Assembly (NCBI RefSeq): GCF_018069865.1
Contig: NZ_JAGQDG010000006.1
Span: forward strand, 1-64,000
DNA: 64,000 nucleotides
Reading direction: 5' to 3'
Source: Ideonella paludis
GTDB taxonomy: Bacteria; Pseudomonadota; Gammaproteobacteria; Burkholderiales; Burkholderiaceae_C
The position numbers were made by a program, and so were the translations under genes. Below the pieces are notes generated by a model that did not search any database, was not told where the DNA came from, and saw only the letters and a list, made by a program, of their open reading frames with translations. Below are positions 12,842 through 36,077 of the stretch, piece by piece (the first letter of the stretch is position 1; the number at the start of each line of letters is the position of its first letter).

Positions 12842-12882
12842 GTTGCGCTCCTGTGTTGACCGGGGTTTGGGGGCAGCGCCGC

Positions 12883-14103: not shown

Positions 14104-14139
14104 GCCGCCACTGTGCCCACCGCTGCCCGCTGGGGGCAG

Positions 14140-14155: not shown

Positions 14156-14298
14156 GCGTTGGGATGGGGGCTGAACCCCGAAGGCCTGTTTAAGCCATTT
14201 TTTCGACCCCGCCTGTCCACAGACAGCGGAAAACCGGACAGCAGGCCTTGTTGGGGCCGTTAAACGGCTCTAAAACATGGTCAGGCTTGCAGGCAAGC
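14156..14298. other. intergenic block with several inverted repeats; candidate phage end or rearrangement junction
   Basis: This 143-bp segment separates the late I unit from the end of the early operon, which are not neighbours in standard BcepMu order. It holds AGGCTTGC-AG-GCAAGCCT (14283-14300, overlapping the Mor-like stop), GCCGTTAAACGGC (14256-14268), CCTGTCC/GGACAG arms and AAGGCCTG/CAGGCCTT arms. It also contains TTTTTTCGACCC (about 14198-14208), which recurs as TTTTTCGACCC downstream of F at about 35283-35293. No gene is seen. Transposase end sites or a terminator are both possible. Confidence 0.5.
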
Positions 14299-17320: not shown

Positions 17321-17510
17321 GGTCTGCCTCCTTGGCCTGCAAGGGCTGCACTTCCACGCGGGCCAGGTTGTTGGCGCCCCAGCGCTCGATGGCGGCGTCG
17401 TAGGCGTCAAAGGTGGTGGGCACGGTCATCTCCACCTCAAAGCGGCGGTTGTCAACGGTGCGCACCTGCAGCAGCACGCGGCGGGGGGTGGCTTGTGGGG
17501 CGGTGTTCAT
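17307..17510 (-). CDS. hypothetical small early phage protein, 67 aa
   Basis: Starts MNTAPQATPRRVLLQVRTVD. It is a compact alpha/beta-like sequence (RFEVEMTVPTTFDAYDAAIE, ARVEVQPLQAKE). ATG 17510 overlaps the MuB-like stop by 4 nt, and its end overlaps the next gene, so it is translationally coupled in the transposition operon. Function unknown. Confidence 0.5.
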   Translation of the reverse strand: MNTAPQATPRRVLLQVRTVDNRRFEVEMTVPTTFDAYDAAIERWGANNLARVEVQPLQAKEADHAQA

Positions 17511-18529
17511 GCGGCCCTCCCGGCTTTGGCGGCTTGGCTCAGGGGGCGCATGAAGAGCACCTTGGTGGCTACGGCCTCCACAAGCTGGGCGCTCAGGGCC
17601 TTGCCGCTGCCGTAGTCCTTGATGGCGGGCACAAGGCTTTCCATCAGCATGCGGGCGCTGCCGGCGCAATAGGCCCACAGGGTGTCCAGCACGTCGTCGG
17701 GCACGTCGCCAAACTCGGCCAGGGCTTCGGTGGCCATGGCGTCGGCGTCATCGCGGGTGATGCACTTCACGGTTTCGGGCCACATGCTCACGCGGCTGCG
17801 AATCTGGTCAAACTGGCCGGTCTCGGGCTTGAGCAGCTGCATCAGCTTCTCGGTGCCCACCAGCACGGTGCCGATTTCGGCTTTGTCGCGGATGCGGCGC
17901 ACGTAGTGCAGCGCGGTGTCGTTCAGGCTCTCGGCCTCGTCAACGATCAGCAAGTAGTGAGTGTCCTTGAGCGCCTTCACCACGTTGTTGAACATTTGGT
18001 CAACGCTGATGGCGGTGGGGATGCCCAACTGGCCGTGCAGCTCCAGCAGCAGGCTCTTGGCTGTCATGCGGGGGTTGCTCTCGATCAGCAGGGTCTGGGG
18101 CTTCTCGCGCCAGTACTCTTTGAGCGTGCGGGTCTTGCCCACGCCCACGCGGCCACACACCACGCCAAAGTTGGCGTGCTTGCGGGTGCGGTCGCACACC
18201 ACAAAAACCAGCTTGTGCACGCTGCCCTTCACATAGCCCGGCGTGCCGTCGCCCAGGCGCTCGGCCTCCAGGTGCACGATGGCCAGCATCTCGGCCAAGT
18301 AGCTGCTGGGGCTGCTGGGGTACTTCTGGTTCAGCACCTGGCTCACGGTGCTGCTGCTGATCTTGGTCTTCTTGGCCAGCCAGCTGCGCGGCAGGTCGCG
18401 GGCTTGCAGCCAGGCGATGATCTCTTTGGCGGCGGCGCGGTCTTGCTCCGAGTAGAAGCTCGGGGCCGGGCACACAAGGTCGGTGCCCGCAACAGCGATT
18501 TGGACGGGGTTATCGGCGGGGTTGCTCAT
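17507..18529 (-). CDS. MuB-like transposition AAA+ ATPase
   Basis: A 340-residue protein. The N-terminal ~85 residues form a helix-turn-helix (WLAKKTKISSSTVSQVLNQK), as in MuB. The AAA+ part follows with Walker A GRVGVGKT (126-133) and Walker B LLIVDEAE (about 193-200). The protein would choose target DNA and activate the transposase, giving target immunity and replicative transposition. Its ATG overlaps the transposase stop as TGATG, so the two are made together. Confidence 0.92.
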   Translation of the reverse strand: MSNPADNPVQIAVAGTDLVCPAPSFYSEQDRAAAKEIIAWLQARDLPRSWLAKKTKISSSTVSQVLNQKYPSSPSSYLAEMLAIVHLEAERLGDGTPGYVKGSVHKLVFVVCDRTRKHANFGVVCGRVGVGKTRTLKEYWREKPQTLLIESNPRMTAKSLLLELHGQLGIPTAISVDQMFNNVVKALKDTHYLLIVDEAESLNDTALHYVRRIRDKAEIGTVLVGTEKLMQLLKPETGQFDQIRSRVSMWPETVKCITRDDADAMATEALAEFGDVPDDVLDTLWAYCAGSARMLMESLVPAIKDYGSGKALSAQLVEAVATKVLFMRPLSQAAKAGRAA

Positions 18530-20217
18530 CAGTCATTCCTCCAGGACAGGACGTCGATATCGATCACATTCGCGCCGCTGTTGGGCAGCGCGGGCTTAGG
18601 CGTGGCGGTTGTGGTGTTGGTGGGCTCGGCGGGGGGCAGCGCGGCGCGCTCCAGGTCTTCAATGGCCGCGACCTGGTCGGCGGTGGTGATGGCGTCCGCA
18701 CGGCGGGCCTGGGCCTCTTCGTAGTGGCGCTCCAGGCGCTTGAGCTGGCCCTGCAGGCGCTTGTCGCGCTGCTCTTCAATGCGGCTTGTTGGCAGCACGC
18801 CGATGGTGTTGACCAGGCGGGCTTCGCACACCAAGCGGCCCTTGGTGTCTTGCACCCACACGGTTTTGTCGTTGTGGATGTCGTACTCCACCACCAGCTT
18901 CTTGCCGTCGTACAAGGCCAGGGCCTCGTGGAAGTAAAAGCGGTTGTGGATACGCACGGTCTGCCGCTGCACGGTGGCCTCTTTGCTGGGGCGCATCACT
19001 GCGCCAGCGTCCACCCCCAGGGGCACGGGCACCAGCTCTGCCCACACCTGGGCCGGGGTGCGCCCGCCCAGGCTGTCCATGGGCTCGTTGTGGTACTGGT
19101 CGAGGAAGGCGCGGAAGCTCTCCACGTACTGCGCAAAGCTGGGCAATGTGCGCTTGCCGCTGGCCAGCTCGGCGCTCAGGCGGCGGTTGATCTCGGGCGC
19201 CATGTCGTCGCCGCAATAGACCAAGCCATCAGCAAAGAACTTGTCGTGCTTGTCGCGGGCGGTGCGGAACCACCGCTCGATCCAGCCCTTGCCGTGCGGG
19301 TTGCCGGGCAGCGCACCGATGACGGCAATGCTGAACTTGCTGTACCAGCCCGTGGCTTCATCCGTCAGCATCTTGTTGCGGTAGCCAGCGCCTCGGTCGA
19401 TGTAGAGCCATGCGGGCACGTGGTCGTTGCTGACCATGGCGTGGCTCAGGGCAAACATGGTGGAGAGGCCCGACTCACTCTCGGTGAAGTACCAGCCCGC
19501 CACGTACTTGCTCTTGATGTCGATGAAGGCGGTCAGCTCAGGCCGGAAGGGCTTGCCGGTGTTGGGGTGGGCCACGTAGCAGTCCACGGTGTGGCCGTCA
19601 CCGGCCAAGATTTCGCCCACCAGCACTTCGTCCAGGTTGCGGCGCTGGTAGCCCTGGCGTGTCAGCTTGTGCAGGTGCTTGCCAATGCGGGCGGGGCTGT
19701 TCTCGCCCAAGGTGGCGGGCAGGGCCTTCAGGTAGCGCTTCACGCGGCTCTCTGTGGCCTCGGGGTGCCCCTCTTGGCGCAGGCGCCAGGCCACGTCGGC
19801 AAAGCCGGGCTTGCTGGGTTGGTTGTAGATGGCCACGGCCCGCGCTTCCCAGCCGTAGTCCTTGCGCACGCGGCCGGTGTGGGCGGGCAGCAGCGCGGCC
19901 TTGCCGCCGCTGATGTAGGCGCGCAGGTAGCGCTTGAGGGTGCTCTCTGAGCCGTCAGCCCCCAGGGCCTTCAGCACGTGGGCGGTGTTGGGGTCGAGCA
20001 GGCCGCCCTCGGCGCGGGCCAGGAACAGGCGCACGGCGTTGTTCTGGCTCACGCCGGTTTCCACCATCTTGGCCAGCGGGGCCACGATGGCGGCGCGCAG
20101 CTCGGCGGTGCGGCGCTTGTCCTCTGTGGCGGCGGCCCATGGGTCCGCAGTCAGTGCGGCGGGCAGGTCGCTCATATGACGGACGTTTGCGTTGACGAGT
20201 TTGAGTAGGGCGCCCAT
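18529..20217 (-). CDS. MuA-like DDE transposase
   Basis: A 562-residue protein. Helical DNA-binding segments at the N-terminus are followed by an integrase/rve-type core with D207 (ILAGDGHT), D274 (LYIDRGAGYR) and E314 (GKGWIERWF). A Mu-transposase C-terminal beta-barrel-like part and an Arg-rich coil follow. It would cut and join phage ends during integration and replication. ATG 20217 gives an N-terminus MGALLKLVNANVRHM; ATG 20175 (MSDLPAALTADPW) is a plausible alternative. Leftward orientation, divergent from the repressor, matches BcepMu rather than Mu. Confidence 0.95.
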   Translation of the reverse strand: MGALLKLVNANVRHMSDLPAALTADPWAAATEDKRRTAELRAAIVAPLAKMVETGVSQNNAVRLFLARAEGGLLDPNTAHVLKALGADGSESTLKRYLRAYISGGKAALLPAHTGRVRKDYGWEARAVAIYNQPSKPGFADVAWRLRQEGHPEATESRVKRYLKALPATLGENSPARIGKHLHKLTRQGYQRRNLDEVLVGEILAGDGHTVDCYVAHPNTGKPFRPELTAFIDIKSKYVAGWYFTESESGLSTMFALSHAMVSNDHVPAWLYIDRGAGYRNKMLTDEATGWYSKFSIAVIGALPGNPHGKGWIERWFRTARDKHDKFFADGLVYCGDDMAPEINRRLSAELASGKRTLPSFAQYVESFRAFLDQYHNEPMDSLGGRTPAQVWAELVPVPLGVDAGAVMRPSKEATVQRQTVRIHNRFYFHEALALYDGKKLVVEYDIHNDKTVWVQDTKGRLVCEARLVNTIGVLPTSRIEEQRDKRLQGQLKRLERHYEEAQARRADAITTADQVAAIEDLERAALPPAEPTNTTTATPKPALPNSGANVIDIDVLSWRND

Positions 20218-23700: not shown

Positions 23701-23897
23701 GCGCCGCCCCCTGCTGGCACTGCATCAGCTGGGGCGGCTGGGCCTGGGGCGGCCCGCACAGCTTTTGCCGCGACCCGCGCTGCCCCAAGGTGCAGGCGTC
23801 GCCCGCAACGGGCTGCTGCAGCTTTGAGCGGGCGCCCGGTGTAGACGACGAGGCCGGGCCGCCGCCTTACCCGCCGCCCGCCGAGCTCAACCCTTGA
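23697..23897 (+). CDS. small Cys-rich protein, 66 aa
   Basis: Starts MSAAPCWHCISWGGWAWGGP, with six cysteines (CxxC, C, C, CC) and Trp/Gly-rich text, then a Pro-rich tail. It is coupled to the preceding gene by an ATGA overlap and converges with the formyltransferase gene, overlapping its 3' end by 11 nt. The Cys pattern suggests a metal site. Function unknown. Confidence 0.5.
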   Translation: MSAAPCWHCISWGGWAWGGPHSFCRDPRCPKVQASPATGCCSFERAPGVDDEAGPPPYPPPAELNP

Positions 23898-24486
23898 GCC
23901 TCTTGCCCACCGCGTAGGCGGGCTCCCAGCTCGCCAGCGCTGGGTCTTGCTCATGCCGCTGCAGGCGGCCTTGGGCCAGCAGGCGCAGCGCGTCTCTCAG
24001 CAGCCGCACGCCCATGGGGCCTAGATCGCGCTCCCACAGGCTGCGGGCGTCATCACCCGGCCTTACCCAGCACCAGTCTTGCAAGGCGATGGGGCCGGTG
24101 TCGGCTCCGTCGTCCATCCAATAGACCGTGCCGCCAGCGACCTGGTCGCGCATGTGCAGCGTCCATACAATCGCGTCTCTGCCCCGGTGCCGGGGTAGCA
24201 GGCTGGGGTGGTAGCCCAGCGCCCCGTGGCGGGCCTTGGCGCGGGCCTCTGAGGTGATGAAGACATGGGCATGGGCACACACCAGCACGTCCACGCCGTC
24301 AGGCACCCACACGGGGCCAAGCGCGGTGGGCACTTGGCACACGGGCACGCCCAGCTCGTTGGCAAGTGCTGCCAGGCGGTCGTCGCTGCGCGGGGCGCTC
24401 ACGGCGGCCACGTCGTGGCCCTCGTCTATGCACATGCGCAGCACTTCCAGGCCCAGCCACTTCTGGCCGATCAGCATCACCCGCAT
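23887..24486 (-). CDS. formyltransferase-like protein (last gene of accessory/modification operon)
   Basis: A 199-residue protein with the formyltransferase N-terminal fold: MRVMLIGQKWLGLEVLRMC, then GYHPSLLPRHRGRDAIVWTL (about residues 91-110) and DDGADTGPI (125-132). His93 and Asp129 match the catalytic His and Asp of 10-formyl-tetrahydrofolate-dependent enzymes. The usual Asn two residues before His (N-x-H) is Gly91 here. It lacks the tRNA-binding C-terminal domain of Fmt, so Met-tRNA is an unlikely substrate. It overlaps the ABC-GNAT gene by 10 nt. I infer a role in modifying a small molecule or DNA base with its operon partners. Confidence 0.75.
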   Translation of the reverse strand: MRVMLIGQKWLGLEVLRMCIDEGHDVAAVSAPRSDDRLAALANELGVPVCQVPTALGPVWVPDGVDVLVCAHAHVFITSEARAKARHGALGYHPSLLPRHRGRDAIVWTLHMRDQVAGGTVYWMDDGADTGPIALQDWCWVRPGDDARSLWERDLGPMGVRLLRDALRLLAQGRLQRHEQDPALASWEPAYAVGKRLKG

Positions 24487-25610
24487 AGCGGCTCCCCCAA
24501 GTAGCGAAAGCCCTGCACGGCCCTGAAGTGGCCGCCGTGGCCCGCGCCATGCACGCCCGGCTTGCCTTTGCGGGCGGCGGACGCCTGCAAGGTCTGCATG
24601 CTTCTGGCCCTGTCATCGCCCACCAGGTTGGCCGAGACTTGCGTCCACTTCGCGCTGCGGCGCAGTGCCGCCGCTAGGCCAGGGTGGCTGGTGTGGAACA
24701 GGGTTTTCATGGGCTTTGAATAGCGGTTTTCGCCCTGGCGCCAGCGCTCGCACACGGCGTCCAGAAAGCGCAGGCCCACGCCCGCGCCTTGCCACTCGGG
24801 CATCACCACCAGGCGGCAAGCTCGGGCCTCTGCCAGGCCGGGCCGGGTGCTCACGGCCACATGGGCCACGGGCGCCCCGGCCACGCTGGCCACGTAGTTG
24901 GTCGCGGCAATCATGCGCGGCAGCTTCAGATAGTGATGCGGCTCAAAAGCTGGCCAATGCTCCCAGCCGGTTTGCCACAGCTCCACGTCGATGCGCGGCC
25001 GTCGCCGAAGCCACCCCCGTGAGAACTGGCCCGTGGCGGTGTCAAACACCCAGTCGGGCTGCACCCAGTCGAGGATGTCGTAGTGGCAACTCAGCAGCAC
25101 AGCCCGGCCTTGGGTGCGGCGCCAGGCCTTGGCAAAGGCGCCCGCGCCGATCTGGGCGATCTGGCGGTCTACCACGCTGCTAAACTCGTCCAGCACGGCA
25201 CGGGCCGGGGCCTCGGCGATCAGCCGTGCCAGGTTGGCGCGGAACTGCTCGCCGTTACTCAGCACCGGGTAAGGCCGCAGCCAGGTGGGCACGCTGCCCA
25301 GGCCCACGCTGGCCAGGGCGGTGGTCACGTCATCAAAGCTGCCCTCGGGGGTGATGGCGTCGATCAGCGGCTTGTCGGCGGGCCAGCTGGGCGCATAGAC
25401 GGCCCCAGCGCCCCACAGGGCACGGCCTAGGCTCGTCTTGCCACTGCCGCTGGGGCCTACGATGACCCCAAGGCTCCAAGGCGCGCTGTCGAGGTCTAGC
25501 TCTGCGTCCAGGCTGAAGTTGGCGCCGCTCTCCACGTTGAACAGGCTTTTCACCCGGGCGGCGCGGTAGCTGTTGAAGTCCGCGCAGCTGTGTTGAATGG
25601 TGAGCTTCAT
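24477..25610 (-). CDS. ABC-type ATPase fused to a GNAT acyltransferase domain (Mom-position gene)
   Basis: A 377-residue fusion. The ATPase half is complete: Walker A GPSGSGKT (52-59), signature LSNGE (117-121), Walker B with D141-E142, D-loop and switch His176. The C-terminal half (about 220-350) is GNAT-like: YVASVAGAPVAHVAVSTRPG, then VVMPEWQGAGVGLRFLDAV with the Q-G-x-G-x-G/A acetyl-CoA loop. No membrane partner is present, so transport is unlikely. It stands two genes after com-like, where Mu has mom, and Mom is itself a GNAT-fold DNA-modifying enzyme. ATG 25610 overlaps the upstream stop (ATGA). Confidence 0.8.
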   Translation of the reverse strand: MKLTIQHSCADFNSYRAARVKSLFNVESGANFSLDAELDLDSAPWSLGVIVGPSGSGKTSLGRALWGAGAVYAPSWPADKPLIDAITPEGSFDDVTTALASVGLGSVPTWLRPYPVLSNGEQFRANLARLIAEAPARAVLDEFSSVVDRQIAQIGAGAFAKAWRRTQGRAVLLSCHYDILDWVQPDWVFDTATGQFSRGWLRRRPRIDVELWQTGWEHWPAFEPHHYLKLPRMIAATNYVASVAGAPVAHVAVSTRPGLAEARACRLVVMPEWQGAGVGLRFLDAVCERWRQGENRYSKPMKTLFHTSHPGLAAALRRSAKWTQVSANLVGDDRARSMQTLQASAARKGKPGVHGAGHGGHFRAVQGFRYLGEPLCG

Positions 25611-25804
25611 ACGCACACCACCTTGGGGGCGTGCCCCTGCTTGAGCAGCCGGTTATAGAGCCGCTGCTGGTCGGCCTCGGTGGCGCACTCCAGGATGATC
25701 CCGAAGCGGCGCCGGTAGGCAAAGCCGTTCTCGCCCGGCCGGGTGATGGGGTTACGGGGGTGCTTCTTTCGCGGGGGCGCTCCCCGCTGTGCGGTCGTGG
25801 TCAT
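25607..25804 (-). CDS. small basic protein between com-like and ABC-GNAT genes, 65 aa
   Basis: Starts MTTTAQRGAPPRKKHPRNPI, a basic N-terminus, then YRRRFGIILECATEADQQRLYNRLL, given in parts as YRRRFGIILEC and EADQQRLYNRLLKQG. It overlaps the com-like gene by 53 nt and the ABC-GNAT start by 4 nt (ATGA). The fold beta-alpha (FGIILECATEADQQRLYNRL) looks like a small ParB-linked or RHH-like unit, but I do not recognise it. The nested overlaps recall the com-mom overlap in Mu. Confidence 0.6.
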   Translation of the reverse strand: MTTTAQRGAPPRKKHPRNPITRPGENGFAYRRRFGIILECATEADQQRLYNRLLKQGHAPKVVCV

Positions 25805-25964
25805 GGGTCAACTCCTCACGGTTTGACGCTCCACGGCGCTCAGGGGTGGGGCTCTCGGCCCTCAGGTCGTTCAAGGTGCCGCAGCGCGGGCACTTGATCT
25901 GCAAGCGGCGGTAGTCGCCCACCGCCAGTTTGCGGGCGCACTGCCCGCATCTGATTTCTTCCAT
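25752..25964 (-). CDS. Com-like zinc-ribbon translational regulator
   Basis: A 70-residue protein. MEEIRCGQC at the start, then IKCPRCGTLN gives C6-x2-C9 and C25-x2-C28, the same spacing and context (IRCxxC...IxCPRC) that I recall for Mu Com. Mu Com binds mom mRNA and opens its translation start. The C-terminal half is charged and disordered. It is followed by overlapping genes ending in the ABC-GNAT fusion, so it plausibly controls their translation. Confidence 0.85.
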   Translation of the reverse strand: MEEIRCGQCARKLAVGDYRRLQIKCPRCGTLNDLRAESPTPERRGASNREELTHDHDRTAGSAPAKEAPP

Positions 25965-26046
25965 GGCATCTCGGATAATGCGCCCGCCTGTACAGGTGGC
26001 AGGGCCTTAGGCTGATGCCGTGGCTACTCACGGCGGAGGCGGGTGT

Positions 26047-26066
26047 CCTGGTGTTAGCGCACCAGG
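26047..26066 (-). other. hairpin in the leader upstream of the com-like gene
   Basis: CCTGGTG and CACCAGG (7-bp arms, 6-nt loop) lie within a longer imperfect stem (about 26037-26076) between the DUF5131 stop and the com-like start. No T-run follows. It could be an attenuator, a Com target or a processing site. Confidence 0.45.
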
Positions 26067-26082
26067 GCACTCGCCCTGTTCT

Positions 26083-26985
26083 TTAGTCGGTGCTCTCCTT
26101 ACAAGCGATGCGGGCCACAGCGGGAAACTCGGTGTGATCCACCCCGTCCAGCATGCGGCCGGCGGCGGCCTTGCCAATGCGGGCGCCATGCCACCACTCG
26201 CCCCACTGCTTGAACAAGAAGGGCACGTCCGCCCGGCGGCATTGGTCGCGCAGGCCACGCACCCAGTCCGGGTGCATAGGCCTTGCGCCTGGGCCTGACT
26301 CACCGCCCACGATGACCCAATGCACACCGCCGTCGTCAGGCTTGCGCAGCTTCATCTGTCGCAGGCCTCCACGGGTGCGTGTCTCCCCGGTCGGCACGCT
26401 GAAGAAGTGGAAGCGCAGGTCAACGGGGCCGAGTAGCGGCTCCACGCTCAGGAAGCGCACGCTTGCGGGCACCTCCAGCAGCTTGGGAATATCCCGATCC
26501 GCCTCGGCTTGGTTGCAGATAGTCGCGCCAATCCAGACGTTCGACCACGGGTTTCCGTCCCACTCGGCGGCGCCGACAAACTCGCCCGCAACTGCTGCGG
26601 CTGCGTTGTTCAGCATCCCGCGAGCGTTGCCGATGCGCTTCGTCAACAGCAGCCAGTCAAGGTGGGGTGTCACGGCGATCAGGCGGAACAAGTCCCATCG
26701 CCACCACTCCGGCACCTGGTTGTCAAACACATCGGCCAGGCTGGCACAAAACACCCTATAGCGCCGCCCCTCGGCCTGCGCTTGGGCGTTCCACTTCAGG
26801 GGCGCTGCCCAGGTGCTCTTGCTGGTGCGGCGGCGCTCGCCACCCCACACCACGCCCGCAGCCTTGCCCCCACGCTTGGCCCAAGCCTCGGCGTAGCAGT
26901 GGTCGCACGCGGGGCTTACTTTGGTGCAACCCACCCACGGGTTGAAGGTGTGGTCAGCCCACTCGATCTTGGTGTCTTGTGCCAT
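26083..26985 (-). CDS. DUF5131 (phage Gp37/Gp68) three-Cys protein
   Basis: A 300-residue protein. IEWADHTFNPWVGCTKVSP and CDHCYAEAWAKR give C20-x6-C27-x2-C30, the hallmark of DUF5131. I recall that this family is considered radical-SAM-like. VHWVIVGGESGPGARPMHPD near residue 225 and FLFKQWGEWW are further family signatures. ATG 26985 overlaps the ASCH gene stop (TGATG); ATG 27015 would extend into that gene. Its place in a com-mom-like operon suggests a role in nucleic-acid or nucleotide modification. Confidence 0.88.
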   Translation of the reverse strand: MAQDTKIEWADHTFNPWVGCTKVSPACDHCYAEAWAKRGGKAAGVVWGGERRRTSKSTWAAPLKWNAQAQAEGRRYRVFCASLADVFDNQVPEWWRWDLFRLIAVTPHLDWLLLTKRIGNARGMLNNAAAAVAGEFVGAAEWDGNPWSNVWIGATICNQAEADRDIPKLLEVPASVRFLSVEPLLGPVDLRFHFFSVPTGETRTRGGLRQMKLRKPDDGGVHWVIVGGESGPGARPMHPDWVRGLRDQCRRADVPFLFKQWGEWWHGARIGKAAAGRMLDGVDHTEFPAVARIACKESTD

Positions 26986-27374
26986 CACAAGCCCCCCTGC
27001 GCGGGCTTTTCCCACTCCACCATCCAGCCCTCAAGCTGGCCCTGGTGCGCTTCCTGGAAGTAGCCGTACAAGTCCTCTAGGCATGTGAAGCCGTCTTGCT
27101 TGGCCAGGGCCACTTTCTCAGCCACGCCCAGCAGCTGGCCATCCACAACGATGCTGCGCTCCTCACAGTCGATCTGCACACCGTGCACAGCCGTGGCCGG
27201 CGTAGCCAGCAACAAGCGCGTGCCACTGGTGCGCAGGCCGGTGTAGAGCTTCAGCGTGTCGCCCGCCTTGGGGCGGCGGCCATCGGCCCGTTCTTTGCGG
27301 ATGGTGCTGGTCTTTGTGCCCGCTTCAATCGCGGGGGCAAAGGCCTTCATGAAGTTGATCGTGAAGGTGGCCAT
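26985..27374 (-). CDS. ASCH-domain-like protein
   Basis: A 129-residue protein starting MATFTINFMKAFAPAIEAGT. KTSTIRKERADGRRPKAGDT and LKLYTGLRTSGT match the ASCH/PUA-like pattern (G-x-K-x2-T-I-R then GD-x-L-x-LYTG-x-RT). The family binds RNA or modified nucleobases; some members are amidohydrolases acting on acetylated cytidine. The start is 2 nt after the upstream stop and the end overlaps DUF5131. Such a protein could recognise the modified base or an RNA in this operon. Confidence 0.75.
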   Translation of the reverse strand: MATFTINFMKAFAPAIEAGTKTSTIRKERADGRRPKAGDTLKLYTGLRTSGTRLLLATPATAVHGVQIDCEERSIVVDGQLLGVAEKVALAKQDGFTCLEDLYGYFQEAHQGQLEGWMVEWEKPAQGGL

Positions 27375-27375
27375 C

Positions 27376-27816
27376 TCACACCCCCACGCGGGCGCGCCAG
27401 CCGCGCCACAGGGCGGTGGTGATGAGGCTGTTGTAGTCGCCAAGTGGGGCGCTGTCATTGCTCAGGTCATATCCCAGCGGCTTGGCCAACGCCTCAAAGG
27501 CTAGGCGCTCAGCCTCCAGCACCTCGGCGGGTGTCGCAAAGTCTTGGTAGGCAAACGGGCGCGGCTGCAGCGCCCAGCGCTGGGGCTTGCGGCCCTGCAC
27601 GCCGCCCGCCGCCTCGCCTTTGTCTGCCAGGTAAGCCATGCCGCTGTCCTTCAGCTCTTTAAGCCACAGCAGCAGGGTGCTTTCATGGGCGCCCACCATC
27701 TCTTCCAGGTCTTGCAGGGTCTTGGGGCCTTTGGCCAGTGCGGCCACCAGCTCACACATCCGCACCACGGTGTCGAGCTTGCGTTTGCCCTCGGCGGGCT
27801 TTGGGTTTGAGGTCAT
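27376..27816 (-). CDS. winged-helix DNA-binding protein heading the accessory operon
   Basis: A 146-residue protein. KLDTVVRMCELVAALAKGPK, TLQDLEEMVGAHESTLLLWL and KELKDSGMAYLADKGEAAGG form a winged helix of the type found in phage regulators. The C-terminal ~60 residues (LGYDLSNDSAPLGDYNSLIT) are unassigned. It is the promoter-proximal gene of the operon, divergent from the holin across the 27817-27987 region containing an activator palindrome, so it may regulate either direction. Confidence 0.65.
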   Translation of the reverse strand: MTSNPKPAEGKRKLDTVVRMCELVAALAKGPKTLQDLEEMVGAHESTLLLWLKELKDSGMAYLADKGEAAGGVQGRKPQRWALQPRPFAYQDFATPAEVLEAERLAFEALAKPLGYDLSNDSAPLGDYNSLITTALWRGWRARVGV

Positions 27817-28342: not shown

Positions 28343-28951
28343 ATGACCCGCGCTTTTGCACGCTTCTTTGGCTATGCCGTTCTGCTGGCCGTGCTGTTCA
28401 CCAGCGTGCTGGCCCAGGCCCAGCCCGCACAGGCCGAGCGCTACAAGCGCACGCTGCGCCAAGAGGCGCACTTGGCCTGGGGCCTGGGCGCGCCGGTGGC
28501 CACCTTTGCGGCGCAAGTCCACCAAGAGAGCATGTGGCGCGAGGATGCCCGCAGCCAGGTGGGCGCGCAAGGCTTGGCCCAGTTCATGCCCGCCACCACG
28601 CAGTGGATCGGCGGCGCCTATGCCAGCCTGGGAGAGCGAGCGCCGCTCAATCCCACCTGGGCGCTGCGCGCTTTGGTCACCTACGACAAGCACCTTTACA
28701 GCCGCGTTAAAGCGGCTTCGCACTGCGAGCAAATGGCCTTTGCGCTGGCTGCCTACAACGGCGGCTTGGGTTGGGTCTACAAGCGGCAAAAGCTCAGCCC
28801 CAACCCCGGGGTGTGCATGGGTGCCACGTGCGCCATCAACCCCGGCGTGAGCCCGGCCAGCCAGCGCGAGAACGAGCACTACCCGGTGGTGATCTTGCGC
28901 AAGTGGGAGCCGCTGTACGCAAGCTGGGGCATGGGGAGCTGCGCGTCGTGA
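28343..28951 (+). CDS. endolysin, lytic transglycosylase (SLT family) with N-terminal signal/anchor
   Basis: A 202-residue protein. Residues 8-30 (FFGYAVLLAVLFTSVLAQAQ) form an export signal or signal-arrest-release anchor. The SLT-type core follows: AAQVHQESMWREDARS with the catalytic Glu, VGAQGLAQFMPATTQW and FALAAYNGGLGWV. This is the transglycosylase rather than T4-lysozyme type. It sits between holin and spanins, so it is the phage endolysin. Its stop overlaps the GTG start of the Rz-like gene. Confidence 0.88.
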   Translation: MTRAFARFFGYAVLLAVLFTSVLAQAQPAQAERYKRTLRQEAHLAWGLGAPVATFAAQVHQESMWREDARSQVGAQGLAQFMPATTQWIGGAYASLGERAPLNPTWALRALVTYDKHLYSRVKAASHCEQMAFALAAYNGGLGWVYKRQKLSPNPGVCMGATCAINPGVSPASQRENEHYPVVILRKWEPLYASWGMGSCAS

Positions 28952-29544
28952 GCCGCGTCTACCTCTTCAGTGCTGTATTCATGCTGCTGGCGGCACTTCT
29001 GCTGGGCGGCTTTGGGCTTGGCACATACCACGGCGCCCAAAAGTGCCGTGCCAACGCAGCCGCCACTGCGGCCACTGCCCAAGCCGCCCAGGCCACCGCC
29101 ACCACCACCGCCGTGGTGCAGGCCGCAAGCGCTGCCCAGGCCACCACCGCTGCAGCCGTGGCCAGCGCTGCCCGTGTGGGCCAGCGCCGAGAGGCACACC
29201 GCGCCCAGGTCGATGCCTTCTTCACCCCCTTGCAGGAGCCCGCCGCCTATGCTTCCCAGCCCATCTCTGAACCGCTCTCTGCTGCTGCTGAGTGCAGCCT
29301 TGATGCTGACGGCCTGCGCCGCTGGGCCGCAGCCAATGCCGGACCCTGGGGCGGTGATGCAAGCCACCCGCCCGGTGCCGGTGCCGCCCCCGGCCAGCCT
29401 GCTGACGGTGCCGCCCACGCTGCCCCCACCGCGTTCGGGCTCGATGCCCGACCTGCTGGCCAACCACTTGACGGTGGCGCGCCAGTACCACCTTCTGCGC
29501 TCTCAGGTGTGCCTGCTGCTGGCACACCTGGGCGCGCCCACTGA
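28948..29544 (+). CDS. inner-membrane spanin (Rz-like)
   Basis: A 198-residue protein beginning at GTG 28948 (VSRVYLFSAVFMLLAALLLG). One N-terminal membrane anchor is followed by a long Ala/Thr/Gln-rich helical region and a Pro-rich end, as in i-spanins. It overlaps the endolysin stop, and a lipoprotein gene in another frame is nested in its 3' half. Together they would link inner and outer membranes at lysis. Confidence 0.72.
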   Translation: MSRVYLFSAVFMLLAALLLGGFGLGTYHGAQKCRANAAATAATAQAAQATATTTAVVQAASAAQATTAAAVASAARVGQRREAHRAQVDAFFTPLQEPAAYASQPISEPLSAAAECSLDADGLRRWAAANAGPWGGDASHPPGAGAAPGQPADGAAHAAPTAFGLDARPAGQPLDGGAPVPPSALSGVPAAGTPGRAH

Positions 29545-29560
29545 CGGCTGCCCCCAGTAG
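29249..29560 (+). CDS. outer-membrane spanin lipoprotein (Rz1-like), nested out of frame in Rz
   Basis: A 103-residue frame starting MLPSPSLNRSLLLLSAALML and continuing TAC, a classic lipobox with Cys23. The mature part is Pro-rich (PVPVPPPASLLTVPPTLPPP), as in Rz1 proteins. It is nested +1 in the Rz-like gene and extends 16 nt beyond it. The nested Rz/Rz1 arrangement is well known in lambda-like lysis cassettes and supports both calls. Confidence 0.82.
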   Translation: MLPSPSLNRSLLLLSAALMLTACAAGPQPMPDPGAVMQATRPVPVPPPASLLTVPPTLPPPRSGSMPDLLANHLTVARQYHLLRSQVCLLLAHLGAPTDGCPQ

Positions 29561-29613
29561 GCAAGACCTAGGCCGCCACCCACCACCACTACAAACCGTT
29601 CGGGACCACCACC

Positions 29614-29904
29614 ATGTCGCAGTCAGACGCCGAAACAAACGCCAAGCTCTTGCAAGAGATTGCAGAAGTCCGCGGTGACCTCAAAACCATCACCGCGCTG
29701 CTGCAGCACCAGGCCGAGAGCAGCGAGCGGCGTCACGCCGACCTCAAAGAGCACCTGAGCCAGCGCCTGGACGGGCACGAGCGCCGCATCGGCAAGCTGG
29801 AAGACAACGAGCGCTCCACGGCGATCAAGGCCGCAGGCTTGGGCGTCGTCACCAGCGCGTTGGTGGCCGCTGGCATTGCCGCACTGCGCGGCGGCCTGAA
29901 GTAA
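29614..29904 (+). CDS. DUF2730-like coiled-coil membrane protein (Mu gp25-like)
   Basis: A 96-residue protein. A coiled coil (LLQEIAEVRGDLKTITALLQ, HLSQRLDGHERRIGKLEDNE) is followed by a C-terminal membrane helix (GLGVVTSALVAAGIAAL). Mu-like phages carry such DUF2730 proteins between lysis and terminase genes. Its function is unknown; a second holin/antiholin role is possible from topology. Confidence 0.65.
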   Translation: MSQSDAETNAKLLQEIAEVRGDLKTITALLQHQAESSERRHADLKEHLSQRLDGHERRIGKLEDNERSTAIKAAGLGVVTSALVAAGIAALRGGLK

Positions 29905-29932
29905 CCCGCCCGCTTTCAGCCCATAAGCCCGC

Positions 29933-30430
29933 ATGGCCTACGACACCGCCACCCGCAACAAGCTGCGCGCAAAGTACGTGCAAGGCATGGCGCTCACCTC
30001 GGCTGCTGAAGCCGTGGGCGTGCCCTATGCAACATGCCGCACCTGGAAGCGCCAGGCCGCCGAGAGCGGTGATGACTGGGACGTGGCCCGCAACGCCCGC
30101 CGCATGACCAAGGACGGCGTGGCCGAGATGGCCAACCAGGTGATGCACGAGATCGCCGAGCAGTTCTTGGCCACGATTGAAGCGATCAAGGCTGACAAGA
30201 AGATGGGCGCCGAGGCCCGCGCCAAGATTCTGGTGCAGCTGATGGACGCCTATAACAAGGCCATCCACGCAACCGGCAAAGCCACGCCCCATGCCAACCG
30301 CCTGGCCGTGGCCATGGACGTGGTGCGATTCCTCACCCAGCGCATGCACGGCACCGCCCGCGCTGAGTTCTTGGCTGTGGTCGAGACGCTGGGCGACGCC
30401 CTGGTCAAAGAGTTCGGGGCGCAAGCGTGA
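29933..30430 (+). CDS. DUF1804 protein, probable small terminase
   Basis: A 165-residue protein. The N-terminal helix-turn-helix (LRAKYVQGMALTSAAEAVGV, PYATCRTWKRQAAE) and the helical rest fit DUF1804, found directly before TerL in BcepMu-like phages. It would recognise phage DNA for packaging. Its stop overlaps the TerL GTG/ATG region (start at 30427), so the two subunits are cotranslated. Confidence 0.82.
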   Translation: MAYDTATRNKLRAKYVQGMALTSAAEAVGVPYATCRTWKRQAAESGDDWDVARNARRMTKDGVAEMANQVMHEIAEQFLATIEAIKADKKMGAEARAKILVQLMDAYNKAIHATGKATPHANRLAVAMDVVRFLTQRMHGTARAEFLAVVETLGDALVKEFGAQA

Positions 30431-32082
30431 GCCGCACCAAGGCCATCAACCCCAAGCTCTTCTTGGCCGAGCTGGCCGCGTATGCGGACGAGCAGCGCAA
30501 GCTGATCGAGGCCGACTGCGAAGGCTTCAGCACCGACCCCGCCGCCCAGGCTGAGCGCGTCAAGCGCGCCCAGGCCGACTTCCGCTTCTTCTCCAAGACC
30601 TACTTCCCGCACTACGTCAAAGGCTCAGAAAGCGCCTTTCACACTTGGTTCTATGACCGCGTGCCGGGCCTGATCGACGCGCCATCTGGCGCCCTGATCA
30701 ACGTCTCCGCCCCACGGGGCGAGGCCAAGTCCACCTTGGGCACGCAGTTGCTGGCGCTCTGGTGCATCGTCACCGGCCGCAAGCACTTCATGCCCGTTGT
30801 GATGGACAGCTGGGACCAAGCCGCGACCATGCTTGAGGCCATCAAGACCGAGCTGACGGCCAACCCGCGCTTGATGATGGACTACCCCAAGGCCACAGGC
30901 GCCGGCCGCGTCTGGAACGCGGGCGTCATCCTCACGGCCAACAACGTCAAGATGCAGGCCTTCGGCTCGGGCAAAAAGATGCGGGGCCTGCGCCACGGCC
31001 CGCACCGGCCCGACCTGGTCTTTCTCGACGACATCGAGAACGACGAAAACGTCCGGCAAAAGGCCCAGCGCGACAAGACAGAAGACTGGGTGGCCAAGAC
31101 GGTGCTGAACCTTGGCCCGCCTGACGGCAGCATGGATGTGCTCTATCTGAACACCATCCTGCACTACGACTCGGTGGCAAACCGCTATCACAAGAAGCCG
31201 CGCTGGGTGCGGGTCAAGTTCAAAGCCATCACCCGCTGGCCCGACAGGCTCGACCTGTGGGAGCAGTGGGAGCAGCTCTACCTGGCCGAGGCCGATGACG
31301 ACGACAGCGGCCTGCAGGGCAACGAGGCCCCCACCGCCGCCGCGCAGTTCTACGAGCAGAACAAGGCCGAGATGGAGCGGGGCGCCGTCGTCTCTTGGCC
31401 CACCATGCGGCCTCTCTTGCGCCTGATGCAGATCAGGGCCGAAAACCACAAGGCCTTCGACTGCGAATATCAAAACGACCCGACCAACGACGAGACGGCC
31501 CTTTTCACGAACATGCAGTACTGGGTTGTTCCCTGCCGAGACTGGGTCTTCTATGGCGCACACGACCCCAGCCTTGGCAGGAACAACAAGGGCAACGACC
31601 CCATGGCTTGCCTGGTGGGCGGGTTCGACCGTGAGAAGGGCATCCTTGATGTGGTGGAGGCCCGCGTGGCCCGCATGGTCCCCAACAAGCAGATCGACCT
31701 GATCATTCAGTATCAGAGCGAGTACAACTGCCTGGCGTGGGCGTTCGAGGCTATCCAGTTTCAGGAGTTCATGCGCCAGATTCTGGTTGCACGAAGCGCC
31801 GCTGAAGGTGTCCCGGTGCCCGCATTGCCCGTGACACCGCACTCGGACAAAGACCTGCGCATTCAGGGCATCAGCCCCCATGTGTTCAATGGCCTGATCC
31901 GCTTCCGCCAGGCGCACACGACGCTCAACACCCAGTTGCGGCACTACCCCGAGGCCGACCACGACGACGGCCCAGACGCACTAGAAATGCTTTGGAAGCT
32001 CGCCGTCTCGCGCCGGGGTGGAACGCCCAAGATTCGCACCGGCAGGCGCCGCGCCCCCGCCTTGCCCACCCCGACCCACTGA
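30427..32082 (+). CDS. terminase large subunit
   Basis: A 551-residue protein beginning at GTG 30427 (SRTKAINPKLFLAELAAY). The ATPase part has SAPRGEAKST (94-103, Walker A-like) and LVFLDDIEND (about 198-207, Walker B). A C-terminal nuclease-like part contains FYGAHDPSLG and HDDGPDALEML. It packages DNA headful-style into proheads and cuts host DNA at the right end in Mu-like phages. It precedes the portal by 14 nt. Confidence 0.92.
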   Translation: MSRTKAINPKLFLAELAAYADEQRKLIEADCEGFSTDPAAQAERVKRAQADFRFFSKTYFPHYVKGSESAFHTWFYDRVPGLIDAPSGALINVSAPRGEAKSTLGTQLLALWCIVTGRKHFMPVVMDSWDQAATMLEAIKTELTANPRLMMDYPKATGAGRVWNAGVILTANNVKMQAFGSGKKMRGLRHGPHRPDLVFLDDIENDENVRQKAQRDKTEDWVAKTVLNLGPPDGSMDVLYLNTILHYDSVANRYHKKPRWVRVKFKAITRWPDRLDLWEQWEQLYLAEADDDDSGLQGNEAPTAAAQFYEQNKAEMERGAVVSWPTMRPLLRLMQIRAENHKAFDCEYQNDPTNDETALFTNMQYWVVPCRDWVFYGAHDPSLGRNNKGNDPMACLVGGFDREKGILDVVEARVARMVPNKQIDLIIQYQSEYNCLAWAFEAIQFQEFMRQILVARSAAEGVPVPALPVTPHSDKDLRIQGISPHVFNGLIRFRQAHTTLNTQLRHYPEADHDDGPDALEMLWKLAVSRRGGTPKIRTGRRRAPALPTPTH

Positions 32083-32096
32083 GACCAAACCACGCC

Positions 32097-33701
32097 ATGG
32101 CCCTCCTATCAAAACTCATTGGTGGCTTGCGCGGCATGCTGGGCAAGCCACAGGCCACGCCCGAGACAGACCCGCAGCTTTGGCTTAACGGTTTGCTGGC
32201 CATGCCTGACCCAGACCCGATCCTCCGAAGCATCGGGCAGGCAGAGCGTGTCTACAACGGCATGGTGCGCGAGCCCCACATCCTGGGCGAGATTCGCAGC
32301 CTGCGGGGAAACTTCCGCTCCTACAAGTACCGCCTGCTGCCGGGCAATGAGGGCGACGCGGCGAGCCTGCGCGCCCATCAAATCTGCGAAGAGTGGATGC
32401 GCAGCACCGCCCCCTGCGGTGTGGACACCAACGGCGTGCAGACCGACTGGATGGAGGTGATGTGGCAGATGGCCAGCTCGGTGCTTTACGGCTACCGCGC
32501 CCACGAGGTGGTGCCCGACCTGGTCAACGGCCTGTACCTGCCCACAGCCGTGGTGGATAGGCCCAACCGCCGCTTCACGTTCAAGGCTGATGGTTCACCG
32601 CTGCTCATCAGCAAAGGCAGCGGCCTGCAGGGCGAGCCTGTAGACCCATGGCGCTACGTCATCAGCCGCCACATGGCAGACGCCACCAACCCCTACGGCA
32701 TCGCGATCTTGAGCGCGTGCTTCTGGGCTTGGACGTTCAAGACCGGCGGCTGGAAGTACTTCGTCAAGTACTGCGAAAAGCACGGCCTGCCGTGGCCCGT
32801 GGCCCGCTACCCCATGGGCACCTCTGAGGCGGACATCGACAAGCTCGAAGCCGCTATTGCCGAGATGGTGGAGAGCGGCTACGTCGTCACGCAAGAGGGT
32901 ACGGGCCTAGAGCTGCTGGTGCCCAGTTCCTCTGGCTCTGGCAGCCTGCCGCAGCTTCAGCTTATCCAGCTTGCCAATGCCGAGATCAGCAAAGCGATCA
33001 ACGGCCAGGCGATGGTCTCCGAGCTGAACGGCGTGGGCGCCCGCGCCGCCAGCGAGACGGCGGCGGAGCGCCAAGCCGCCATCAACGACAGCGACCGCGA
33101 CACCGCCGCCGCTGGCATGGGCCAAATTTTCAAGTGGATCACCCGCTGGAACATCGGCGACGGCGTCGCACCGCCCACGCTGGAGTTCTTCCGCAACGAG
33201 AAGGCGGGCAAAGACCGCGCCGAGACTTACCAGATCGCCGTGGCCATGGGCGCGAACCCCAGCAAGAGCGCACTGCTGGAAGAGCTGGGCATCCCCGAGG
33301 CTGAAGACGAGGCCGACCGGCTCACCGCCCCCAAGGCAGCTGCCCCCGCGCTGCCCGCTCAGCCCTCAAAGCCCGCCCCTAAGCAGGGCGAGCCCACACC
33401 GCCCACCGAGCTGGAGCTTTCCGGCCTGGCCGGGCTCACCTTTGCCAAAGCGGCAGGCATGACGGAAGAGGAGGCCATCACCCTGGCCACCGAGGCGGCA
33501 GACCAGGCGATTGAAACGTCCATGATCGCCCCCGTCGCCCAGATGCTGGCCGACTACGAGGCCCAAGGCAAAACCCTGGCCGAGTTCAAAGCCGCCCTGG
33601 AAGACGTGGTGGGCGTCATGGACGACGAGGCCCTGCGCGAGGTGATCGAGCGCGCCTTGCAGTACTCCATCCTCCGTGGCTCGGCCACCAACGCAGCATG
33701 A
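32097..33701 (+). CDS. DUF935 portal protein (Mu gp29-like)
   Basis: A 534-residue protein. EIRSLRGNFRSYKYRLLPGN, VLYGYRAHEVVPDLVNGLYL, YGIAILSACFWAWTFKTGGW and ARAASETAAERQAAINDSDR are hallmark segments of the DUF935 portal family. The C-terminus holds an Ala/Pro linker and a helical domain. The portal forms the dodecameric ring for DNA entry. ATG 32097 gives the family-typical start (MALLSKLIGGLRGML); the longer ORF overlaps TerL. Confidence 0.92.
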   Translation: MALLSKLIGGLRGMLGKPQATPETDPQLWLNGLLAMPDPDPILRSIGQAERVYNGMVREPHILGEIRSLRGNFRSYKYRLLPGNEGDAASLRAHQICEEWMRSTAPCGVDTNGVQTDWMEVMWQMASSVLYGYRAHEVVPDLVNGLYLPTAVVDRPNRRFTFKADGSPLLISKGSGLQGEPVDPWRYVISRHMADATNPYGIAILSACFWAWTFKTGGWKYFVKYCEKHGLPWPVARYPMGTSEADIDKLEAAIAEMVESGYVVTQEGTGLELLVPSSSGSGSLPQLQLIQLANAEISKAINGQAMVSELNGVGARAASETAAERQAAINDSDRDTAAAGMGQIFKWITRWNIGDGVAPPTLEFFRNEKAGKDRAETYQIAVAMGANPSKSALLEELGIPEAEDEADRLTAPKAAAPALPAQPSKPAPKQGEPTPPTELELSGLAGLTFAKAAGMTEEEAITLATEAADQAIETSMIAPVAQMLADYEAQGKTLAEFKAALEDVVGVMDDEALREVIERALQYSILRGSATNAA

Positions 33702-34012
33702 GCACCAAGCCCCGCCTCTACGTCGCAGGCCCCATGAGCGGCCTGCCCGAGCTGAACTTCCCCGCCTTCCACCAAGCCGCCGCCGCCCTGCGCGCCCGGG
33801 GCTTTGAAGTGGTCAACCCGGCCGAGATCAACGTCGATCCCGCCGCTGGCTGGCTGGCCTGCATGCGGGCAGACATCGCCCAGCTGATCACCTGTGATGG
33901 CCTGGCTATGCTGTCCGGCTGGGAGAAAAGCCGGGGGGCGAAAGTTGAATACGAATTAGCCAGGGGCCTAGGGCTGACAGTTAAGTCCGTTCAGTACTGG
34001 ATGGCGAAGTAA
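33698..34012 (+). CDS. DUF4406, nucleoside deoxyribosyltransferase-like protein
   Basis: A 104-residue protein. LYVAGPMSGLPELNFPAFHQ, FEVVNPAEINVD and LAMLSGWEKSRGAKVEYELA fit DUF4406, a short deoxyribosyltransferase-like fold (GPM, then D-x-L/A..GW-x-S-x-GA-x-x-E). It overlaps the portal stop by 4 nt and the F start by 1 nt, so it is embedded in the head operon as an extra gene. A role in nucleotide or base metabolism is inferred only. Confidence 0.75.
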   Translation: MSTKPRLYVAGPMSGLPELNFPAFHQAAAALRARGFEVVNPAEINVDPAAGWLACMRADIAQLITCDGLAMLSGWEKSRGAKVEYELARGLGLTVKSVQYWMAK

Positions 34013-35202
34013 TGGCCGTTGAGCCCTTCGGCCTACGCTTCGACGAGGCCATCCAATACCTGCGCGGCAAGCTGCCCGAGGCCAGCGTGCGCTGGGACGA
34101 CCTGGCCGGGCCGGTCCACGGCAAGGTGTTTACGGTGGCCGGCGCCACCACGGCCGACCTGGCGCGCGACATTCAAGACGCCCTGGTCAAAGGTCTGGAG
34201 AGCGGCCAAACCCTCACCGCGTTTCGCAAGGACTTCGACCGCATCGTCCAAGAGCGGGGCTGGTCTTACAACGGCAAGCGCGGCTGGCGCACGGCGGTGA
34301 TCTTCGACACCAACATGCGCAGCGCCCACATGGCCGGGCGCTGGGCGCAGCTCCAGGCCAACAAAGAGGCTCGCCCCTTCCTGCAATACCGCACCGCAGG
34401 CGACGCCCGCGTCCGCAAGCAGCACCGCCAGTGGGACGGCAAGGTCTACCCTGTCGACGACCCCTTCTGGTCAACCCACTACCCGCCCAACGGCTGGGGC
34501 TGCCGCTGCACCGTGCGCGCCTACAGCCAGGCCGAGATGGAGCGCAAGGGCCTGTCCCAGTCCGAGCCCTTCCAGATGCAGACCCGCGACGTGGTCACCC
34601 GAGACGGCGAGATCACCGACCGCGTGCCAGTCGGCATCGACCCTGGCTGGGATCACAACGTGGGCAAGAGCTGGATCACGCCCGAGCTGGCGCTCGGCGC
34701 CAAGATCGCCCGCCTGCCCAAAGAGCTGCGCGGCCCGGTGACCGACAAAACCGTTTCTCCGGCCTTTCAAACAGCCATTGAAGCCAATTGGAAAGCCTTT
34801 CAAAACAGCGGCAAAGCCGCCCAAGGCGACGCCCAAATCCTCGGCTTTCTGGATAGCGCCATGCTCGACGGCCTAGAAACCGTGGCCGCCGTGGAGCTGC
34901 GCGGCAGCGCCATCGCCGCCACCGCCGACTTGGCCAACGCCTGGCCCCAAGAACTGACCGACCGCGTGCCTTCGCTGCTGCGCGACTACCGCGCCGTGCT
35001 GTGGGACCGCCAAGCCGCCCAGTTGGTGGTGGTGCCCGACGTTGCCCGGCCCGCCCAAGGCCAAGCCCAGGTGATCCGCGTTACCCCCAACGTCAAAACC
35101 AAGTACGGCACCGCCGCCGTCGTCACCGCGCTGGAGGCCCACTCCACCGCCGACCTCGCCACCCAGCGCTACCAAGTCATCGCGGGCCGCGCCCCCCGCT
35201 GA
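34012..35202 (+). CDS. Mu F-like minor head protein
   Basis: A 396-residue protein. TAVIFDTNMRSAHMAGRWAQ, YRTAGDARVRKQHRQWDGKV and WSTHYPPNGWGCRCTVRAYS are diagnostic of the Mu F/SPP1 gp7 head morphogenesis domain. The C-terminal ~120 residues resemble a barnase-EndoU/ColicinE5-like or toxin-type tail found in some F proteins. In Mu-like phages I and the capsid gene follow; here the gene is followed by non-coding DNA and host sequence. Confidence 0.9.
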   Translation: MAVEPFGLRFDEAIQYLRGKLPEASVRWDDLAGPVHGKVFTVAGATTADLARDIQDALVKGLESGQTLTAFRKDFDRIVQERGWSYNGKRGWRTAVIFDTNMRSAHMAGRWAQLQANKEARPFLQYRTAGDARVRKQHRQWDGKVYPVDDPFWSTHYPPNGWGCRCTVRAYSQAEMERKGLSQSEPFQMQTRDVVTRDGEITDRVPVGIDPGWDHNVGKSWITPELALGAKIARLPKELRGPVTDKTVSPAFQTAIEANWKAFQNSGKAAQGDAQILGFLDSAMLDGLETVAAVELRGSAIAATADLANAWPQELTDRVPSLLRDYRAVLWDRQAAQLVVVPDVARPAQGQAQVIRVTPNVKTKYGTAAVVTALEAHSTADLATQRYQVIAGRAPR

Positions 35203-35989: not shown

Positions 35990-36077
35990 TCTCAGCAGTT
36001 TGAGGGCCGTCAAGGGCTTGCTCCATGCAAGCAGCGCAATGCCCTTGACCGCGCCCCATCCCTTACCATCTGCGCTG

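Follow-up and report, generated by a model that had tools for sequence, protein, structure and literature searches.

The window analyzed here, a 64,000-nucleotide (nt) stretch at the start of Ideonella paludis contig NZ_JAGQDG010000006.1 (host genome of 4.8 Mb in 22 contigs), sits inside a Mu-like prophage and carries on its minus strand a four-gene module at 25964-23887. The module encodes the zinc-finger protein Com, a small partner protein, a fusion of an ABC ATPase with a GNAT acyltransferase (ABC-GNAT), and a formyltransferase (FT). We propose that these four genes probably acylate DNA bases with a small group, perhaps formyl, and thereby shield phage DNA from host restriction, and that they probably form a Com-switched DNA-modification operon of the phage that is expressed late. 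Acylation of DNA bases is in our judgment the likely function. That a formyl thioester is the donor and formyl the group moved is a tentative proposal that may well prove otherwise, and the complete explanation, joining the Com switch, the formyl thioester, and base acylation, is put forward with the same reserve.

The limits of the module were set by gene neighborhoods. ABC-GNAT relatives were represented by the best 80 of 415 confirmed stretches in IMG/VR and the best 80 of 170 from GTDB genomes, which together with three phage records and the window gave 164 loci and 151 distinct ABC-GNAT sequences; the window copy (L001) was excluded from the 164-locus counts, and neighbors were scored with profiles grown from the window proteins. 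A small gene lies immediately upstream of ABC-GNAT in 162/164 loci, FT follows immediately downstream in 124/164 (120/140 where at least 600 nt of room is available), and Com is found no more than 600 nt upstream in 115/164. Conversely, a reverse search from FT among viral loci recovered ABC-GNAT, Com, and the small gene together in 21/21; 17 of these contigs had come up in the first set as well, and four were new. Because the neighbor counts and the reciprocal searches agree, we define the unit as Com-small-ABC-GNAT-FT.

An earlier note on this DNA had read a longer operon. Seven minus-strand open reading frames (ORFs) do fill 27816-23887, and the ATGA and TGATG couplings it described are confirmed from the sequence: the winged-helix and ASCH frames are separated by 1 nt, ASCH and DUF5131 overlap by TGATG, the com and small-gene frames share 53 nt, the small gene and ABC-GNAT overlap by ATGA, and ABC-GNAT and FT overlap by 10 nt. 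Its domain calls also hold for Com (65.7 bits against a Pfam cut-off of 22.9, PF10122), Formyl_trans_N (73.3 against 26.1), ABC_tran (28.7 against 25), and DUF5131 (301.6 against 28.9; PF07505, E 5.2e-90), the last of which contains the C-x6-C-x2-C motif, and the GNAT loop is present as a conserved Q-x-x-G-x-G. The Pfam matches for GNAT (best E 1.1e-4), ASCH, and the winged helix all fall below the curated cut-offs.

That all seven genes form one system, with radical chemistry supplied by DUF5131, we consider hardly credible. The genes are contiguous in the window, yet DUF5131 and Com are spaced by a 118-nt gap with a 17-pair stem-loop (26038-26075), and the seven genes do not stay together across the loci examined. 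The 131-nt region around the stem-loop folds better than 200/200 shuffles (z -3.3); read on the plus strand, the stem is terminator-like. When the best 80 of at least 600 DUF5131 loci were searched, 0/80 held ABC-GNAT, FT, Com, or the small gene within about 5 kb, and DUF5131 is present in 4/163 other ABC-GNAT loci, in two of the four on the opposite strand. A single-sequence phmmer search, which distant relatives can escape, found an ASCH relative in one other ABC-GNAT locus only, on the opposite strand, and matched no winged-helix relative in the other ABC-GNAT loci. The winged-helix, ASCH, and DUF5131 genes look like bystanders outside the module, and radical chemistry loses its basis because DUF5131 is not supported as a part of the operon. 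What stands of the earlier reading is an operon under Com control that probably serves DNA modification and draws on acyl-CoA-type and formyl-folate chemistry; the expected joint recurrence in other loci is borne out for Com, the small gene, ABC-GNAT, and FT and fails for DUF5131.

The ABC half of the fusion protein is intact, with Walker A GPSGSGKT (residues 52-59, numbered from the ATG at 25610), the signature LSNGE (117), Walker B with LDEF (140), and the H-loop H176, and its key positions are kept in at least 95% of the 164 sequences. Also conserved are HHYL (225) and, in the other half, the acyl-CoA loop QGAGVG (274), whose Q-x-x-G-x-G positions hold across the same 164 sequences. The AF2 model (pLDDT 87.5) has a predicted strand/helix order that fits GNAT. 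Because the first 50 hits of the fold search were ABC ATPases throughout, the GNAT assignment rests on the sub-threshold Pfam matches, the loop, and the strand order. The phage families matched by ABC-GNAT and by the small partner, phrog_11143 and phrog_28816, have no assigned function, and for ABC-GNAT the PADLOC matches were only weak ones of ABC type. A relationship to Mom was considered and rejected, as no Mom family appeared in PHROG or Pfam at E<=1 and hhalign against Mu Mom gave 0.1% in a single-sequence, and thus weak, test. Streptococcus phage Javan141 (L165) encodes the ABC and GNAT parts in separate, neighboring genes that follow one for a ParB_N protein, and the matches from Oenococcus and Lactococcus phages are likewise split in two.

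The strongest case for DNA as the target of ABC-GNAT comes from the partner genes of Com in other phages. A search that left Mu's own Com unmatched gave 27 phage records with a Com match, of which 15 were counted, Komp_PAO1_1 (carrying ABC-GNAT) was kept separate, and 11 fell outside the count, seven being second records of phages already counted. In 14 of the 15 loci the gene after Com is a DNA methyltransferase or methylase (11), a Mom-like gene (two, one by label and the other, in GEC_PNG14, by tblastn), or a "putative DNA modification protein" (one); the remaining locus, DVM-2008, has a hypothetical protein next. Since Com marks DNA-modification genes elsewhere, action of ABC-GNAT on DNA is likely. 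In Pseudomonas phage Bise, com and a DNA adenine methylase gene are closely preceded by a gene (L249 66-1097) annotated as belonging to the reverse transcriptase family.

PMC6483171 describes Com as binding a hairpin loop that holds CC(N)2-3GAG and opening translation of mom. This motif occurs upstream of the small gene in 110/115 Com-positive loci versus 57 +/- 5 in dinucleotide shuffles; it is also somewhat enriched in Com-negative loci (32/47 versus 23 +/- 3.5 shuffled). Five of the 115 Com regions lack the four-Cys pattern and were left out; among the other 110, at least one Com-type hairpin, in which the first C of the motif pairs with the last G, is found in 86, and two in 49, by a definition that is post hoc, derived from looking at those same sequences. 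A four-pair stem stands at 135/233 motif matches versus 81 +/- 4 when arms were re-dealt among loci, a control that leaves relatedness, repeated rows, and codon constraint in place (the hairpins lie inside com). The stems use many pair sets, including GCGC/GCGC, AGGC/GCCT, ATGC/GCAT, and TCGC/GCGA. Two candidate hairpins lie inside the window's own com (Table 1), and the second ends 21 nt ahead of the small-gene start codon; the window's 101-nt fold is not unusual (z -1.36). A simpler definition, with the whole motif in the loop, was rejected, with stems of at least four Watson-Crick pairs numbering 14 versus 20.4 +/- 3.8 shuffled and stems of at least three pairs 77 versus 53.5 +/- 4.5 (100 distinct regions).

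The chemistry is suggested by FT. Its best relative in the PDB is the hydrolase domain of 10-formyltetrahydrofolate (10-formyl-THF) dehydrogenase, FDH (E 2.3e-33), followed by sugar formyltransferase (1.3e-12) and Fmt (5e-11), and the first five fold matches of its AF2 model (pLDDT 95) by E-value are FDH entries at 36-39% identity. PMC6802093 describes how FDH His106, Ser108, and Asp142 hand formyl to the thiol of 4'-phosphopantetheine, a carrier arm also described in PMC8748788; according to PMC6802093, HypX, which has a related domain and itself has Asp in place of the FDH Ser, is proposed as a maker of formyl-coenzyme A (formyl-CoA). The matching H93, S95, and D129 are invariant in 120/120 FT sequences (4/124 were removed by a length filter). 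Where ordinary formyltransferases have Asn before the His, FDH has Ile, and the 120 FT sequences have Gly (108), Ile/Val (5), Ser (4), or Ala (3) and never Asn. The Asn is kept by two of the host's three other PF00551 proteins (LNIHPSLLP and LNIHASLLP), which we take for PurN and Fmt; the third was unmatched by the pattern. With an FDH-type active site that lacks the Asn, FT looks built to load a thiol, and a loaded thiol is what a GNAT needs.

The small partner protein, which the earlier note had left unexplained as a small basic protein, proves to be a domain shared with larger proteins. Its profile matches the C-terminal end of longer proteins encoded directly upstream of ABC-GNAT (Gordonia phage Sisko, Kuenenia, and others), and for this reason the 65-amino-acid window protein looks, from sequence comparison, like a free-standing version of a ParB-like partner's C-terminal domain. 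The partner frame reaches at least 130 amino acids (aa) in 23/162 loci. ParB_N is found in 12 of these 23 at E <= 3e-5 (seven over the cut-off) and weakly in one; ten have no match, some of which may be over-extended frames, and the Sisko partner, called ParB-like by its submitters, is among them. The idea that all 23 long partners are ParB-like is weakened accordingly. ParB_N partners are also present in phages Jace and Javan141, which belong to more distant branches. Com occurs in 0/23 long-partner loci versus 115/162 overall (Fisher 3e-15) and in 0/12 ParB_N-partner loci (Fisher 1e-7), relatedness being left in for both tests, and we therefore read Com and the ParB part as alternatives. Overall, a short orphan protein is now tied to ParB-like partners.

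A sister branch of ABC-GNAT has other genes in the FT slot. Phage Jace (Gordonia/Rhodococcus) has, in order, a ParB-like gene, ABC-GNAT, aspartate decarboxylase (PanD; PF02261 E 2e-33), and CoA-transferase family III (PF02515 E 2e-8, partial). Among the 39 viral loci found with the Jace ABC-GNAT, PanD is near in 14, a CoA-transferase-like gene in 18, and FT in one; these loci include near-identical copies, with 12 distinct CoA-transferase-like and eight distinct PanD sequences, Jace included. The decarboxylase retains the Gly-Ser pair that is the self-cleavage site of PanD. The CoA-transferase relative is short and shows weak similarity to a solved one (E 0.007). The natural reading of the gene pair would be a route from aspartate to beta-alanine to beta-alanyl-CoA, and the phage PanD and CoA-transferase-like pair is a candidate system for beta-alanyl DNA modification. 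The core of our donor model is that one slot is filled by two unrelated sets of genes, each capable of making acyl thioesters. The decarboxylase and short CoA-transferase-like gene stand behind ABC-GNAT in L168 (5065-6176) and in loci among L176-L196. Residues 250, 272, 287, 305, and 312 of the GNAT half are fixed but different between 39 window-branch and four CoA-transferase-linked sequences, and on these very few sequences they are possible acyl-specificity sites.

We propose the following sequence of events. Com would bind one or two hairpins in its own message, as the conserved hairpin pattern suggests, and open translation of the small protein and ABC-GNAT. FT, given its FDH/HypX-type active site, would move formyl from 10-formyl-THF to a thiol, most likely that of CoA. 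ABC-GNAT and its small partner would use ATP to engage DNA, and ABC-GNAT would then shift the acyl group from the thioester to an exocyclic amine of a base. The product would be an N-formyl base or a derivative of it that blocks host restriction enzymes. In a wider form, ABC-GNAT would be an exchangeable engine of DNA base acylation whose chemistry is set by the adjoining gene, formyl via folate or beta-alanyl via PanD and CoA-transferase; this generalization we hold to be doubtful.

Several observations weigh against this proposal. For FT, the TM-scores do not split FDH (0.83-0.88) from Fmt (0.82-0.89), the formation of formyl-CoA by HypX is a proposal without direct experiment (PMC6802093), and the protein is a single 199-aa domain from which the FDH carrier, the attached formyl-receiving domain (carrier or CoA site), is absent, so that formyl would have to be accepted by free CoA or by a partner. 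For ABC-GNAT, ABC ATPases make up the whole of the first 50 fold matches, the GNAT matches stay below Pfam cut-offs, and kinship to Mom went undetected in the PHROG search and in the weak single-sequence test. For the Com switch, the first hairpin definition was no better than chance at stems of four or more pairs. For the donor, FT is missing immediately downstream in 20/140 ABC-GNAT loci that have room for it (in one it lies 454 nt away) and 20/39 sister-branch loci, two of them at a contig edge, have neither FT nor CoA-transferase; a neighboring donor gene is therefore not essential, and the many sister-branch loci with neither donor gene are the main weakness of our donor model. Moreover, N-formyl amides on bases are labile in water, which is odd for a shield.

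Three other explanations draw on the same evidence. ABC-GNAT could attach an aminoacyl-type group to the base, whose free amine FT would then formylate, as Fmt does on Met-tRNA. Ordinary members of the formyltransferase superfamily do formylate amines, and Mom, a known partner of Com, moves an acyl group such as glycyl from CoA by the account in PMC7824862; however, FT is closest to the thiol-formylating FDH type, keeps the Asn of the two host formyltransferases in none of its 120 sequences, and has its slot occupied by acyl-CoA-type genes in the sister branch, and we consider this order of reactions unlikely. It is quite unlikely, in our view, that FT is an accessory 10-formyl-THF hydrolase doing one-carbon housekeeping for phage DNA synthesis while ABC-GNAT uses acetyl-CoA. 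The FDH domain is named in the PDB as a 10-formyl-THF hydrolase as well, and 20/140 loci with room have ABC-GNAT without adjacent FT, but the 10-nt overlap with ABC-GNAT, the 21/21 reciprocal linkage, and the unrelated donor-type gene pair in the same slot of the sister branch argue against it.

The target could also be RNA, tRNA, or protein, as with TmcA, an ATPase plus GNAT on tRNA, or GNAT toxins. ATPase-GNAT fusions that act on tRNA exist, and the submitters of several Gordonia phages label FT "tRNA-methyltransferase"; charged tRNA is given as the substrate of GNAT toxins in PMC7641849. Against such a target stand the DNA-modifying genes that Com serves elsewhere, the ParB-like partners, and Mu-like phage Komp_PAO1_1, in which the module comes after tail-fiber genes, much like com-mom in Mu, and we find it very unlikely. 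Base acylation by a Com-switched module, with formyl as the possible group, is retained as the preferred reading.

The module resembles Mu com-mom in that a Com zinc finger lies upstream with its frame overlapping the effector operon (here by 53 nt with the small gene), a Com-type RNA hairpin pattern, known here from sequence, precedes the effector genes, and the phage is transposable with a predicted anti-restriction DNA modification. Unlike com-mom, the effector is ABC-GNAT with the small protein and FT rather than Mom. The closest published counterpart is the prediction by Aravind and colleagues of a phage GNAT coupled to an ABC ATPase (phrog_11143) that would make an uncharacterized acyl modification of a DNA base (PMC7824862, section 3.4.7); the example given for it, Tenacibaculum phage pT24, is among the matches to the window ABC-GNAT as well. 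The earlier note had made no mention of this prediction. FT, Com, the small or ParB partner, and PanD/CoA-transferase are absent from the text of that section, and the prediction as given there names no acyl group. FT shares with the hydrolase domain of FDH (ALDH1L1) and the N-terminal domain of HypX its fold and the lack of Asn before His, and with FDH the His/Ser/Asp set; it differs from both as a single short domain without carrier, dehydrogenase, or enoyl-CoA hydratase, encoded in a phage beside a GNAT. Likewise, GNAT-EVE/ASCH systems are prophage-borne and are proposed in PMC7641849 to acetylate a DNA base, so that a GNAT is predicted to act on a nucleobase there too; ABC ATPase, FT, and Com are not named in the account of those systems, and the window ASCH is not conserved with ABC-GNAT. 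In the open literature we found nothing that joins FT, Com, or PanD/CoA-transferase to ABC-GNAT, with the reservation that the original 2013 NAR prediction might list partners. ABC-GNAT as a DNA acylator is known as a prediction; the donor logic was not found in print.

Table 1. Coordinates of the module, its neighbors, and prophage landmarks in the window.
Feature	Position	Strand	Basis or remark
com, zinc-finger translational activator, 70 aa	25752..25964	minus	PF10122 E 2.6e-18, phrog_6417 E 1.4e-20
Candidate Com-binding RNA hairpin 1, inside com	25849..25861	minus	stem GGGC/GCCC, loop CGAGA; motif CC(N)2-3GAG
Candidate Com-binding RNA hairpin 2, inside com	25826..25839	minus	stem GCGC/GCGT, loop CGTGGA
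Small partner protein, 65 aa	25607..25804	minus	phrog_28816 E 3.9e-15; phage family, function not assigned
ABC ATPase-GNAT fusion, 377 aa, predicted DNA base acyltransferase	24477..25610	minus	phrog_11143 E 1.3e-155
FT, 10-formyl-THF-dehydrogenase hydrolase type, 199 aa, predicted formyl-thioester maker	23887..24486	minus	PDB search, triad, AF2
DUF5131 gene, neighbor outside module	26083..26985	minus	PF07505; 0/80 DUF5131 loci with module
ASCH-like gene, neighbor outside module	26985..27374	minus	PF04266 E 0.0095, below cut-off
Winged-helix gene, neighbor outside module	27376..27816	minus	HTH_5 E 8.7e-4, below cut-off
Transposase	18529-20217	minus	Mu-like prophage gene
Transposition protein	17507-18529	minus	Mu-like prophage gene
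Terminase	30427-32082	plus	Mu-like prophage gene
Portal	31992-33701	plus	Mu-like prophage gene

Among the neighbors, DUF5131 matches PADLOC models PDC-M41B and PDC-M30B, and in one of the 80 DUF5131 loci (L326) an ASCH relative stands immediately behind it. The gene order of the prophage appears inverted (1-14220 and 28343-35202). To the left of the transposase, the minus strand encodes head protease, major head, tail sheath, and tail chaperone; to its right, endolysin, terminase, portal, and minor head are encoded on the plus strand. An inversion of about 14.5-35.3 kb, either real or an assembly error, would account for this order; no long near-perfect inverted repeat was found at its supposed joints. 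A search for a close phage relative by DNA found none, a promoter scan found none, and terminator-like sites are no commoner than in shuffles (5 versus 4.3 +/- 2.3). Two large plus-strand ORFs at the prophage edge (35814-38848), similar to phrog_857/phrog_10912 ("kinase") and phrog_7998, are possible cargo genes.

Finally, the central gene of the module is common, with 415 confirmed stretches among IMG/VR pattern matches and 170 in GTDB genomes, and Com appears to serve generally as a switch for phage DNA modifiers that are unrelated to one another, namely Mom, methyltransferases, and ABC-GNAT. The neighboring genes suggest two acyl groups, formyl and beta-alanyl, each with an exact mass, so that the product is directly testable by mass. 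If the wider form of the proposal is true, Mu-like and other phages would carry N-formyl bases and Jace-like phages beta-alanyl bases; as far as we know, either would be new to DNA, and the N-formyl bases would arise via a formyl-CoA donor.

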